NCBI GenBank assembly: GCA_904379015.1
Contig: CAJFHG010000029.1
Location: 1 to 35,797 of the forward strand
Reading direction: 5' to 3'
Length of the DNA stretch: 35,797 bases
From: Candidatus Paralachnospira caecorum
GTDB lineage: Bacteria > Bacillota > Clostridia > Lachnospirales > Lachnospiraceae
The translations under genes were made by a program, and so were the position numbers. Below are positions 12,499 to 34,767 of the stretch, piece after piece (positions within the stretch are counted from its first letter, which is position 1; each line of letters opens with the position of its first letter). Under the pieces are notes generated by a model that was given only the letters and a program-made list of their open reading frames with translations, was not told where the DNA came from and searched no databases.

Positions 12499-13572
12499 TT
12501 ATTCCTCATTGAGACTGCTCAGCTTGGCCGCCTGGTCCGCGGCGATGCACGCGTCAATGATCTCCTGGATATCGCCGTTCAGGATCTTTTCCAGCTTGTA
12601 CAGGGTCAGGCCGATCCTGTGATCCGTCACCCGTCCCTGGGGGAAATTATAGGTCCTGATCTTTTCTGAACGGTCCCCGGTGCCGATCTGGCTTCTCCGG
12701 GCCTCCGCCTCCGCGTCGTGGGCCTTCTGCCGTTCTATGTCGTACAGCTTCGCCCGCAGCAGCGCGAATGCCTTGGCTTTATTCTGAAGCTGGGATTTTT
12801 CTGTCTGGCTGTACACCACGATTCCGGTGGGATAATGAGTCAGCCGCACTGCCGAATCCGTAGTGTTGACGCACTGCCCGCCGTTTCCGGAGGCGCGCAT
12901 CACATCGATGCGGATATCCTTCTCATCAATATGGACATCGACCTCCTCCGCTTCCGGCATCACCGCCACCGTCACCGTGGAGGTATGGATCCGTCCGCCC
13001 GATTCGGTCTCCGGCACCCTCTGTACCCTGTGAACGCCGGACTCGTACTTCATCACAGAATAAGCGCCCTGGCCCTTGATCATAAAGCTGACGCTCTTCA
13101 TGCCGCCGATGCCGATCTCATCCGCCTCCATCAGCTCCACCTTCCAGCGTCTGCTCTCAGCATAATGTACGTACATCCGGTAGATCTCGGCCGCGAAAAG
13201 AGCCGCCTCGTCGCCGCCGGCGCCGGCCCGGATCTCCACGATCACGTTCTTGTCATCATTGGGATCCTTCGGAAGAAGCAGGATCTTGAGCTTCTGCTCC
13301 AGCTCTTCTGCCTTCTCTCTGGCTGAAGAAAGCTCCTCCTTGAGCATTTCCCGCATTTCCTCGTCGTTCTCCTCCTCCAGCATGGCCAGGCTGTCCTGAA
13401 TGTCCTGCTTCGCGCTTTTATATTCTTTATATGTCTCCACCACAGGAGCCATATCATTCTGTTCCTTCATCAGCTTCCGGAATCTTGTCTGGTCCTCTAC
13501 CACATATGGATTATTCAGTTCTTCCATGATCTCCTCAAACCGGATCACTAAATCATCCAATCTGTCAAACAT
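12499..13572 (-). CDS. prfA: peptide chain release factor 1
   Basis: 357 aa. RF1 recognises UAA and UAG and triggers peptide release on the ribosome. The GGQ motif is at residues 231-233 ([17 protein letters not shown]), and the codon-reading tripeptide is PET at 187-189, the PxT form of RF1 rather than the SPF of RF2. The ATG at 13572 has GGGAGG upstream. Its first 8 bases overlap the end of prmC, whose product methylates the GGQ glutamine, so enzyme and substrate are translationally coupled. Confidence 0.97.
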
Positions 13573-32304: not shown

Positions 32305-33309
32305 TTATTCCGGCTCCTTCTCTCTCTGGCCATGCATGAATTCAATGAATTTCCCTGTACCGATGGCCACCGCCGTGAGCGGCTCTTCCGCGATCACCGT
32401 GTTGATCCCGGTCTTTTCTTCGATCAGGGCGTCCAGACCGCTCAGCAGACTGCCGCCTCCGGTCATAACGATTCCCCTGTCATACACGTCCGCCGCCAGT
32501 TCGGGCGGAGTCCTCTCCAGAACATTGTGTACCGCATCCACGATCTGCATGGCAGGCTCGCGGAGCGCCTCCAGTGTCTCATCAGACGTAATGGTGATGG
32601 TCTTGGGAAGTCCTGTCACCAGATTCCGTCCGCGGACATCCATCGCCACCAGCTCCGGACGCTTGTAAGCGCATCCGATCTGGATCTTGATCTCTTCTGC
32701 CGTTCTCTCACCGATCAGAAGATTGTGCTTCTTTCTCATAAAGCGGACGATCGCCTCGTCAAAGTCATCGCCGGCCACCTTCACAGAAGTGCTCACAACC
32801 GTGCCGCCCAGGGAAATCACCGCGATATCCGCCGTACCGCCGCCGATATCCACGATCATATTTCCGCATGCCTTGGAAATGTCAATGCCTGACCCGATGG
32901 CTGCCGCCACAGGCTCCTCAATGATGGATACCTCTCTGGCACCTGCCTGATAGGTCGCGTCCTCCACTGCCTTCTTTTCCACTTCTGTCGCCCCGCTGGG
33001 GATGCAGACGCTGATTCTCGGCTTGCGGAGCGTCTTCTTGCCCAGCGCCTTGCGGATAAAATATTTGAGCATCTTTTCCGTCACGGTATAGTCAGAAATC
33101 ACACCCTGGCGCAGCGGTCTCACCGCCACGATGTTGCCCGGAGTCCTTCCGATCATCAGACGCGCTTCCTCACCAATGGCCTTGATCTGATTGGTATCTC
33201 TGTCGAAGGCCACTACAGAAGGCTCCTTCAGCACAACGCCCTTTCCTTTTATATACACCAGAATGCTGGCTGTACCCAAGTCAATTCCAATATCAGTTGA
33301 CAGTAACAT
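32305..33309 (-). CDS. mbl: MreB/Mbl actin-like cell-shape protein
   Basis: 334 aa, a standard length. A membrane-associated actin homologue guiding cell-wall synthesis. Phosphate 1 motif IDLGTASILVYIKGKG (9-24), phosphate 2 motif DIGGGTADIAVI (about 154-165), connect motif EEPVAAAIGSGID and the adenosine motif MTGGGSLLSG are all present. The proximity of spoIID and spoIIQ fits Mbl (in Bacillus subtilis mbl lies near spoIID-spoIIQ), but MreB cannot be excluded. The ATG at 33309 has AGGAGG upstream. It has its own promoter at 33500-33527 and a long leader of about 184 bases. Confidence 0.92.
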   Translation of the reverse strand: MLLSTDIGIDLGTASILVYIKGKGVVLKEPSVVAFDRDTNQIKAIGEEARLMIGRTPGNIVAVRPLRQGVISDYTVTEKMLKYFIRKALGKKTLRKPRISVCIPSGATEVEKKAVEDATYQAGAREVSIIEEPVAAAIGSGIDISKACGNMIVDIGGGTADIAVISLGGTVVSTSVKVAGDDFDEAIVRFMRKKHNLLIGERTAEEIKIQIGCAYKRPELVAMDVRGRNLVTGLPKTITITSDETLEALREPAMQIVDAVHNVLERTPPELAADVYDRGIVMTGGGSLLSGLDALIEEKTGINTVIAEEPLTAVAIGTGKFIEFMHGQREKEPE

Positions 33310-33499: not shown

Positions 33500-33527
33500 A
33501 TTATAAACAATTTTTGCAGTTTTTCAA
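33500..33527 (-). promoter_or_regulatory. sigma-A promoter of mreB/mbl
   Basis: On the minus strand TTGAAA (33522-33527), 16 bases, perfect TATAAT (33500-33505). Start point predicted near 33493. Confidence 0.7.
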
Positions 33528-33632
33528 TTCCCTTTTTGCAGATCATGGGAATTTTTGTGTTTTCCTAAATATTCTTTTAGGTTTTTAATATTTTTTTCAC
33601 AGACTGAACATATTTTAGTCACATTTTCTCTT

Positions 33633-33638
33633 TATACT
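33633..33638 (+). promoter_or_regulatory. -10 element of the putative small RNA
   Basis: TATACT on the plus strand, seven bases before the first hairpin. No good -35 is seen at the right distance, so the promoter may be weak or use an activator or another sigma factor. Confidence 0.4.
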
Positions 33639-33644
33639 AAAGAC

Positions 33645-33755
33645 ATACCAATTGAGATTGGTATAAACAAGCTTTTTCATACTCACGCTCGGCAGCCTCG
33701 GGCTGCCGAGTCCCCCCCCTAAAATTCCACCCTGATGTTCAGGGTGTTTTTTTAT
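33645..33755 (+). ncRNA. putative C-rich small regulatory RNA
   Basis: About 110 bases on the plus strand between two minus-strand genes, with no protein frame of note. Three stems in a row: ATACCAAT/ATTGGTAT with loop TGAG (33645-33664); CTCGGCAGCC/GGCTGCCGAG with loop TCG (33688-33710); and CACCCTGA/TCAGGGTG with loop TGT (33728-33746), followed by seven T, a classic terminator on the plus strand only. Between stems two and three lies an unpaired TCCCCCCCCT (33711-33720). Several Gram-positive trans-acting small RNAs use such C-rich stretches to pair with G-rich ribosome binding sites. The 3' end overlaps the last codons of the CmpB-like gene in antisense. No known RNA family was recognised. 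Confidence 0.55.
33728..33753 (+). terminator. plus-strand intrinsic terminator
   Basis: Perfect 8-bp stem with 3-base loop and TTTTTTT directly after it on the plus strand. On the minus strand the tail is GGAATTTTAG, so it can at best weakly end the CmpB-like transcript. Confidence 0.85.
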
Positions 33756-34767
33756 TGCCCAGGGAACGGCGTTTTCTGCGCTCTTCTTTTTTCGCTTTCC
33801 TGCGCTGCTCATACTGCCTGAACTGCTCAGAACGGAAGATCGAAAATTCCTCTGAAAATTTTCTGGAAGTAGCCGAAGGATTTCTCTTCAGCATCTTGAT
33901 TTCGAGCCAGGATATTTTCTTCTCCTGAGACTCATATTCTTTCTTCAGCGCTTTCAGGCGCTCACTCAGACGCGACAGAGAGCTTGTCCCTGCAATATCC
34001 CTGTCTTCCGCCAGCCTGAGCAGCGCGTTCAGTTTTTCATTGGTCGCATCGATCAGATCCTCCAGTCTCCCGCCTACGGAACCGGACAGATCTGTCAGCT
34101 TCTCTCCCACAGAATCCAGCAGCACATTCAGCCTCTCACCGGCCGCGCCGGATTTTTCTGTTATATTTTTCCGCATAAGCGCCACGCGTTCAGAAAACTG
34201 TCCGCGCATTTCCTCAAATTCCTTCCTGACATGAGAAACCGCGTCCAGCATATCCCGCAGGCCCAGCGCCACCCTGACAGACACCACGGTATCACAGATA
34301 AAAACAACCGAGATCACGCTCACCGCAATGGTCACGGCCAGGTCCGGAAGTCCCAGCACAAAGCTCTCCACAGGCTTATGGATCCATTTATTGAGCAGCA
34401 CGGTGAACAGTCCCCAGCACAGAGACGAAGACAGACAGATCACACCCTTAAAATTGAATCTCTGATTGCTGTAATCCCAGTATTTGATCTTGAAGACCGC
34501 CTCCATGATCAGTCCCACCGCCAGCTCCAGAGCCGTCGCCCCGATCATGCCGGCGAAAAACATCAGCACAATATGATCCCGGATCTTTATGGTCACCAGA
34601 AGCATGACCACCGCTCCGGATCCGTAAATCGGCAGCAGCGGCGAATGAAGAAATCCTCTGTTCACAAAACGCTTTTTTCTGATCGAAACATAGGCGCTTT
34701 CAAAGCACCATCCCACAAAGCAGTAAATATAAAAAAACAGCAGCCACTGCTGAACTGTGTAATGCAT
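33739..34767 (-). CDS. CmpB-like putative membrane protein with coiled-coil tail
   Basis: 342 aa. The N-terminal half resembles the putative ABC-transporter permease CmpB family of Firmicutes, whose function is uncertain: about five membrane segments (8-28, 44-60, 65-92, 106-126, 140-168) with motifs VGWCFESAYVSI and NRGFLHSPLLPIYGSGA. The C-terminal half (170-342) is cytoplasmic, highly charged and coiled-coil-like, with four tandem 11-residue repeats at 210-253, and ends in a basic stretch. No ATPase partner is seen nearby. The ATG at 34767 has GGAGGGA upstream, and the gene has its own promoter at 34789-34818. Its stop codon lies inside the terminator hairpin of the antisense small RNA. 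Confidence 0.85.
   Translation of the reverse strand: MHYTVQQWLLFFYIYCFVGWCFESAYVSIRKKRFVNRGFLHSPLLPIYGSGAVVMLLVTIKIRDHIVLMFFAGMIGATALELAVGLIMEAVFKIKYWDYSNQRFNFKGVICLSSSLCWGLFTVLLNKWIHKPVESFVLGLPDLAVTIAVSVISVVFICDTVVSVRVALGLRDMLDAVSHVRKEFEEMRGQFSERVALMRKNITEKSGAAGERLNVLLDSVGEKLTDLSGSVGGRLEDLIDATNEKLNALLRLAEDRDIAGTSSLSRLSERLKALKKEYESQEKKISWLEIKMLKRNPSATSRKFSEEFSIFRSEQFRQYEQRRKAKKEERRKRRSLGNKKTP

Follow-up and report, generated by a model that had tools for sequence, protein, structure and literature searches.

Positions 33633-33755 of a 35,797-nt stretch of the genome of Candidatus Paralachnospira caecorum (contig CAJFHG010000029.1; the whole stretch is hereafter the window) lie between mreB and a gene for a CmpB-like protein, and hold what is, judging from conservation and covariation far beyond chance, a genuine small RNA (sRNA) gene. 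Its family is, on the comparisons presented here, conserved in the Lachnospiraceae, a family of abundant gut anaerobes, and new to Rfam. The reading that we favor, and regard as somewhat probable, is that of a stand-alone envelope-stress sRNA, driven from a box like that of htrA and acting as a split antisense that would repress translation starts. The outcome is a family defined by a covariance model, a promoter box and a core, together with a protease gene that bears such a box and a targeting rule that can be tested.

Architecture of the sRNA gene

The features of the element and its surroundings are as follows.

33609-33627, plus strand: presumed response-regulator box, an 11-bp direct repeat (CATATTTT-AGT-CACATTTT) in the place of a -35 element
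33633-33638, plus strand: -10 element TATACT, read from the sequence
33645-33753, plus strand: predicted sRNA of about 109-111 nt, its start placed from the -10 element and its end from the T-run
33645-33664, plus strand: 5' hairpin of eight perfect pairs (ATACCAAT/TGAG/ATTGGTAT)
33669-33685, plus strand: 17-nt core AAGCUUUUUCAUACUCA, putative anti-start, with the complement UGAGUAUGAAAAAGCUU
33688-33710, plus strand: GC-rich stem-loop of ten perfect pairs (CTCGGCAGCC/TCG/GGCTGCCGAG), variable in sequence and covarying
33712-33719, plus strand: run of eight C (C8), putative anti-Shine-Dalgarno
33728-33746 (stem) and 33747-33753 (T7), plus strand: intrinsic terminator
33500-33527, minus strand: sigma-70-like promoter TTGAAA-16-TATAAT (11/12, promoter scan), presumably of mreB
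32305-33309, minus strand: mreB/mbl, divergent neighbor (PF06723, 473 bits)
33739-34767, minus strand: gene for a CmpB-like protein, convergent (PF06541)

The -10 element, the perfect 8-bp and 10-bp hairpins, the C8 run and the terminator hairpin with its T7 had been described in the initial annotation of this DNA, and all of them are read directly from the sequence. The same annotation stated that the T-run lies on the plus strand only and that the element is no terminator for its neighbors; indeed, the hairpin read on the minus strand has GAATTTTAGG behind it, which makes a poor terminator. Absent from it were the core, the response-regulator-like box, the family-wide distribution, the sister sRNAs and the link to htrA, all dealt with below.

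The predicted folding energy of the RNA is -42.4 kcal/mol, compared to -22.45 +/- 3.35 kcal/mol for shuffled sequences (z -5.96; none of 200 shuffles equal), and in the minimum-energy fold both the core, which includes UUUUUCAU, and the C8 run are unpaired. A UCCC motif is present at 33710-33719 (GUCCCCCCCC). No sigma-70 -35 element fits the sRNA, the promoter scan of the window listing no promoter there, and the promoter on the mreB side is a separate one, 82 nt away. The overlap with the CmpB-like gene consists of the last 15 nt (33739-33753), that is, one terminator arm and the T-run. The possibility of a small protein was rejected, as by eye the RNA has no ATG 5' of the terminator loop.

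Conservation and covariation

Only one such locus was found in the same genome by DNA search. A search of 98 genomes with a 201-bp region gave strong matches (E<=1.1e-36) in that genome and in eight of the ten other members of the genus, the genomes of the two members without a match being 87% and 80% complete. The core is identical in all nine genus copies, which were found with the whole region and not with the core. Both stems are 100% paired in these copies, and 4 of the 17 pairs show two-sided changes, a value reached by none of 500 shuffles; the count of pair types is unremarkable (201 of 500 shuffles). Six pairs of the 5' hairpin are invariant among them, one shows one-sided and one two-sided changes.

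Beyond the genus, the core pattern with one mismatch allowed was detected in 52 of 397 family genomes, seven of the matched genomes carrying tandem sRNA pairs, and the reversed control gave none among the matches listed. A covariance model comprising core, stem and C-run, built from 31 sequences (R1), found, at E<=1e-3, members in 65 of 397 Lachnospiraceae genomes, which belong to 54 of 334 genera; a genome has at most four matches, and the weaker matches show looser cores around UUUUUCAUACUCA. In an order-wide sample of 295 genomes there were six matches at E<=1e-4, all in Lachnospiraceae, and a scan of named genomes gave at least 118 stretches, including Hungatella hathewayi, Enterocloster, Lacrimispora and Lachnoanaerobaculum. 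Across the family the GC stem shows two-sided changes in 9 of 9 pairs (72 cells against 19.7 +/- 3.8 in shuffled alignments) and is 95% paired.

The anatomy of the RNA was counted in 143 non-redundant class-1 copies, chosen by their core. The 5' hairpin is predicted in 130 of them, and a C-run of at least five is found in 135. Where the stem could be scored (138 copies), the stem-loop measures 20-27 nt and has 78 distinct 5' arms, and stands 1-2 nt 3' of the core in 128 copies (0-4 nt being allowed) and directly adjoins the C-run (0 nt) in 125. The stem is thus variable and its position nearly fixed, as would be required for a fixed junction. The motif UACCUACCAUUCC, with one mismatch allowed, also occurs 40-150 nt 3' of the core in 57 of the 143 copies, for instance past the C-run in L041, L048 and L050.

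A promoter box in common with htrA

The promoter of the window sRNA has no mismatch to the family pattern CAYAWTTT-N3-CACATTTT-N(4-8)-TATAMT. A pattern score of at least 19 was reached by 155 of 181 copies (short core, one mismatch) and by 4 of 181 shuffled upstream regions, a contrast with mononucleotide shuffles that is partly circular, the pattern having been drawn after viewing the copies. In 24 genomes, many of them chosen as sRNA carriers, 58 sites matched the pattern with at most three mismatches, compared to 12 for the reversed pattern, and 13 of the 58 are mreB-side sRNA copies. The downstream sequence was read for 49 of these sites, and classes were assigned by that reading: 29 sites precede small RNAs, six stand before HtrA-type genes, one before a response-regulator gene (L359) and one before a lipoprotein-like gene (L327), with nothing recognized behind the remaining 12. 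The six box-preceded HtrA-type proteins, as well as a seventh encoded behind the L358 sRNA, all contain the Pfam domain Trypsin_2, and four of the seven also contain PDZ, two of the proteins being cut by the end of the locus.

As htrA regions were also sought apart from the sRNAs, they provide a more independent check of the box. For this reverse test htrA was searched for in 13 genomes, and scoring ran from 300 nt upstream of the start of the open frame to 200 nt downstream of it, 4 of the 21 loci having no frame that could be scored. In 11 of the 13 genomes a box of 16/22 or more was found near the htrA start (18/22 in the genome of the window), the other two reaching 14-15, and none of 17 shuffled htrA regions exceeded 15/22.

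Some box sites deserve mention on their own. At L358 (G264:C25, 2037-3208) an sRNA copy lies between the box and the htrA-type gene and may double as its leader, and at L327 (G136:C5) the box, with three mismatches, stands 43 nt before the lipoprotein-like gene, a possible further regulon member. An autoregulated response regulator may be the activator, one case, that of L359, having been found with three mismatches. A weak box (16/22) at 1448-1477 of L389 (G264:C53), about 24 nt before a response-regulator gene, offers a lead to the regulator.

Sister sRNAs of the same design

The genome of the window contains two further sRNAs of the same design, C11 and C21, both with the box upstream. The C11 RNA (L140, minus strand; G000:C11, core complement at 12747-12760) consists of CUUUUUCAUACUCA, a stem, UACUCCUCUC and a terminator, and its box scores 18/22. 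The C21 RNA (L348 from 2017; G000:C21 from 27516) consists of UUUUUCAUAAU, a stem and CUCCUC, with an orthologue in L349 and a similar RNA in L357; the sRNAs of L348 and L357 are divergent from a gene with DHH, DHHA2, DRTGG and CBS domains. Among the 29 box-preceded sRNAs, 13 are of the mreB-side type, three have the core, a stem and UUCCUCC or CCUCCC (L343, L358, L362), and six have UUUUUCAUAA, a stem and a CUCC-type stretch (L318, L348, L349, L356, L357 and L367, L348 being that of the same genome). Six more show a hairpin followed by UCCCC(C)CUCAU (L319, L321, L339, L341, L354, L355), and one is less clear (L364). The sisters keep the order UUUUUCAU, stem, anti-Shine-Dalgarno (anti-SD), with the other letters CUCCUC, UUCCUCC or CCUCCC in the last part. 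The sRNAs with a hairpin, a C-run and CUCAU are themselves multicopy, with L341, L354, L355 and L321 in one genome (G025) and L319 and L339 in another (G013), both of them genomes without a match to the core pattern.

Complementarity to translation starts

The core, whose reverse complement is UGAGUAUGAAAAAGCUU, is complementary to the start codon (AUGAAAAAG) and the C-run to the Shine-Dalgarno (SD) sequence, and the two stand in the right order. As a start site is composed of SD, spacer, AUG and codons 2 and 3, its antisense would run anti-start, stem, anti-SD, which is the order of the three core-bearing types. Starts were sampled from 400 kb of the same genome, in which a simple caller gave 330 open reading frames, 220 of them with ATG and an SD. 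In this sample a hydrophobic N-terminus is found in 8 of 10 ATGAAAAA genes compared to 33 of 210 others (p 2.7e-5), and in 6 of 9 genes with AAR-ARR codons compared to 35 of 211 (p 0.0016).

When start regions were compared with internal windows, with the stem omitted and 60 shuffles for each RNA, the C11 and C21 RNAs favored starts beyond all 60 of their shuffles. The window RNA (p 0.004) and the C21 RNA (p 0.025) showed stronger pairing with the mRNAs of exported proteins than with others, the value for the C11 RNA (p 0.07) not being significant. Six of the 12 best-paired starts of the window RNA are exported-like, against 41 of 220 overall; the third best belongs to a lipoprotein (GAGGGGG...UAUGAAAAAG, -26.4 kcal/mol) and the fifth to a secreted protein (GGGGG...AUGAAACAG, -23.9 kcal/mol). 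The best predicted target of the C11 RNA is an epimerase-like gene (-36.7 kcal/mol), which was matched in one of nine relatives.

Genomic place of the copies

The place of the copies was counted for 89 core matches in 80 of the stretches from named genomes. Among the matches listed, 68 of the 89 have a divergent mreB no more than 1.5 kb away, five lie at contig ends and 16 elsewhere; for four of these 16 a divergent mreB lies at a distance of 1.8-4.9 kb, and four (L212, L223, L230, L275) have no C-run and were taken as chance. A CmpB-like gene anywhere in the locus (mostly 8 kb) accompanies 23 of the 89 listed matches. The initial annotation had suggested a trans-acting regulator with a possible antisense effect on the last codons of the CmpB-like gene. 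What stands of it is an undescribed, probably trans-acting sRNA with a C-rich anti-SD stretch, in agreement with the lack of an Rfam family, the covarying stems, the terminator and a promoter of its own; antisense action on CmpB as a conserved function is not supported, given 23 of 89 copies with that neighbor against 68 divergent from mreB, and was set aside as the main function.

In favor of a link with CmpB in this particular genome, the start of the CmpB-like gene, though not its end, shows fairly good pairing with the window RNA (-21.2 kcal/mol), 21 of the 220 sampled starts being as strong or stronger. The mreB start pairs weakly (-10.8 kcal/mol, 184 of 220 starts being as strong).

Proposed mechanism and its alternatives

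In the mechanism that we propose, an activator bound to the 11-bp direct repeat in the -35 place would switch on an sRNA of about 110 nt, transcribed divergently from mreB, and the same kind of box would drive htrA and the two further sRNAs of this genome. The core (UUUUUCAU...) would pair with AUGAAAAA at the start codon and the C-run with the SD, while the GC stem between these arms would stay folded and keep them next to each other, so that a three-way junction forms on the mRNA. Ribosome binding would be blocked in this way on a set of mRNAs, chiefly those with AUG AAA AA starts encoding lipoproteins or other exported proteins, and blocking these export mRNAs would lower the envelope load under stress. 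The sRNA probably blocks the translation start of mRNAs, and those of exported proteins are perhaps its targets. If true, an antisense whose two arms are joined by a stem would offer a simple way to recognize a class of mRNAs rather than a single mRNA.

A number of results weigh against this mechanism. The family is patchy, 332 of the 397 Lachnospiraceae genomes having no model match, and since the search beyond the genus relied mostly on the core, the invariance of the core there is partly by construction. In only 76 of the 143 class-1 copies is the core predicted to be unpaired to 80% or more, and a simple intrinsic terminator within 200 nt was found in only 72 of them (shuffled: 1). The start preference of the window RNA is marginal, being equaled by 4 of 60 shuffles (10 of 60 for the core arm alone, 12 of 60 for the C-run arm), and the target evidence for this RNA is weak by itself. 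The excess of the 14-nt core complement is no more than moderate, with 70 sites compared to 39 for the reversed sequence in the same genome and 66 compared to 43 in nine other genomes, where 12 of the 66 are sRNA genes. Exact core complements are scarce: three sites in the genome of the window (G000), of which two are sRNA genes and the third falls in the start region of a secreted protein (L141), and 12 sites in the nine other genomes, all of them sRNA genes. The link between ATGAAAAA and exported proteins is weaker in other genera (6 of 15 against 67 of 377, p 0.04). The relative that has the epimerase-like gene keeps only the SD and AUGAAAAA, not the extended pairing with C11, a comparison that covers the target gene only. 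Finally, a search for the regulator through 30 loci of relatives of the L359 regulator in six genomes gave a best box of 17/22 and identified none.

The pairing with the CmpB start, the result for the core arm, the count of unpaired cores and the core-based choice of copies slightly lower the odds of the split-antisense mechanism, and of the broader proposal made below on a counterpart of the sigma-E sRNAs, and slightly raise those of two alternatives. In one of them the core is a protein site, for an RNA chaperone or a sequestered regulator, so that the RNA would be a sponge or protein-dependent and the C-run alone would pair. U-rich tracts next to stems are typical protein sites, and the core, invariant in all its 17 nt within the genus, has a complement that is nevertheless hardly enriched elsewhere, the core arm by itself having no start preference beyond shuffles. 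The sister RNAs, on the other hand, alter the core (UUUUUCAUAAU) yet keep CAU and the order anti-start, stem, anti-SD, and we consider a protein site unlikely. The other alternative is a local element, in which the RNA or its transcription tunes mreB by interference between divergent promoters, or CmpB by convergent transcription or pairing with its start. The prevalence of the divergent position beside mreB among the matches listed, the 15-nt overlap of the terminator with the CmpB end and the pairing with the CmpB start speak for it. However, the mreB-side promoter is separate, pairing with the mreB start is weak, some copies are in tandem or unlinked, and most of the listed copies have no CmpB-like gene in their locus, making a local role very improbable.

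A third alternative leaves the antisense in place and concerns the signal: the direct repeat could be the site of a different kind of response regulator (WalR, PhoP or other), responding to cell-wall homeostasis or phosphate and not to envelope or secretion stress. Repeats of 11 bp are general for OmpR-family regulators, the regulator search identified none, and the C21 sister lies beside the gene with DHH, DHHA2, DRTGG and CBS domains, which we take to be the make-up of family II pyrophosphatases. Against this, the box is common to htrA in 11 of 13 genomes, and no pst gene was recognized by eye among the neighbors, no search having been aimed at pst. A reading of the repeat as a Pho box was considered as well and gave way to the link with htrA, a phosphate-type regulator still being conceivable. 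We regard a signal of this other kind as rather unlikely and keep envelope stress as the favored one.

Comparison with known systems

Scans with Rfam 15 gave no gathering-level match over the sRNA in the window or in two further sets of 20 and 18 loci, the matches in those loci being seven tRNAs and one skipping-rope RNA (RF02924; L050, 1704-1781, minus strand), which lies between two tandem mreB-side copies. A known Rfam family was thus rejected, and the sRNA is undescribed there, as the initial annotation had supposed. A mobile element was likewise rejected, with no match in plasmids or phages. Among the top-ranked matches of a literature search by title and abstract there was no paper on this sRNA and no described sRNA regulon for Lachnospiraceae. 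A term search of the main text of PMC8040213 found no mention of mreB, htrA or Lachnospiraceae; its supplementary motif lists, outside that search, may hold an unnamed earlier prediction.

The lowest E among eight weak Rfam matches in the window was that of mmgR/suhB (RF00519; 23.6 bits, E 0.014, below the gathering score of 41), which likewise has a C-rich linker (CCUCCC) before the terminator stem and is an alphaproteobacterial family. Rfam also holds LhrC, and no match of that name was found in the window at gathering level or among the eight matches at E<=10. The relation in sequence to the csRNAs of streptococci was judged by the Rfam scans alone.

The closest likeness in function would be with these csRNAs and with LhrC. 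The csRNAs, controlled by CiaRH, are multicopy and preceded by a direct repeat TTTAAG-N5-TTTAAG with the -10 element at ten nt; they carry unpaired anti-SD and anti-AUG stretches, with CAU in 53 of 61, and htrA is strongly regulated by CiaR (excerpts of PMC3091779). The present family is like them in being multicopy, in having a repeat of 11-bp period in the -35 place and unpaired anti-SD and anti-AUG stretches, and in its link to htrA, as far as the csRNAs are described in the same excerpts (PMC3091779). Both stretches are unpaired in the fold of the window RNA, the family-wide count for the core being the 76 of 143 copies given above. The box is a different one, CACATTTT-N3-CACATTTT in the family and CATATTTT-N3-CACATTTT-N5-TATACT in the window, compared to the TTTAAG repeat and 10-nt spacing given for CiaR in the excerpts (PMC3091779). 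Moreover, unlike in the csRNAs, the anti-SD and the anti-start are split by a conserved GC stem, and the carriers are another bacterial family.

LhrC1-5 of Listeria monocytogenes comprises five copies that respond to envelope stress through LisRK, contain UCCC and are predicted to block the SD of lapB (excerpts of PMC4132741). Being multicopy and containing UCCC are features in common, and LhrC is under a two-component system, with the mRNA of a cell-wall protein as its predicted target; on the other hand, its CU-rich motifs are in loops and a linker, and an anti-start core is not mentioned for LhrC in the excerpted text (PMC4132741). The present family would work like csRNAs and LhrC and is a member of neither, having a box other than that of CiaR and no match to an Rfam model. 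The enterobacterial sigma-E sRNAs MicA and RybB cut envelope protein synthesis while the same response raises proteases; they use Hfq-dependent 5' seeds and have outer-membrane targets, so the likeness is one of logic only. We tentatively put forward, as a broader proposal that we would not yet call probable, that Lachnospiraceae have a Gram-positive counterpart of this system, in which the regulator that drives htrA also drives a set of split-antisense sRNAs (anti-AUGAAAAA, stem, anti-SD), one seed reading the mRNAs of signal-peptide proteins by their MKK start and stopping export under envelope stress. The present family suggests that htrA-coupled anti-start sRNAs arose more than once in Gram-positive bacteria.
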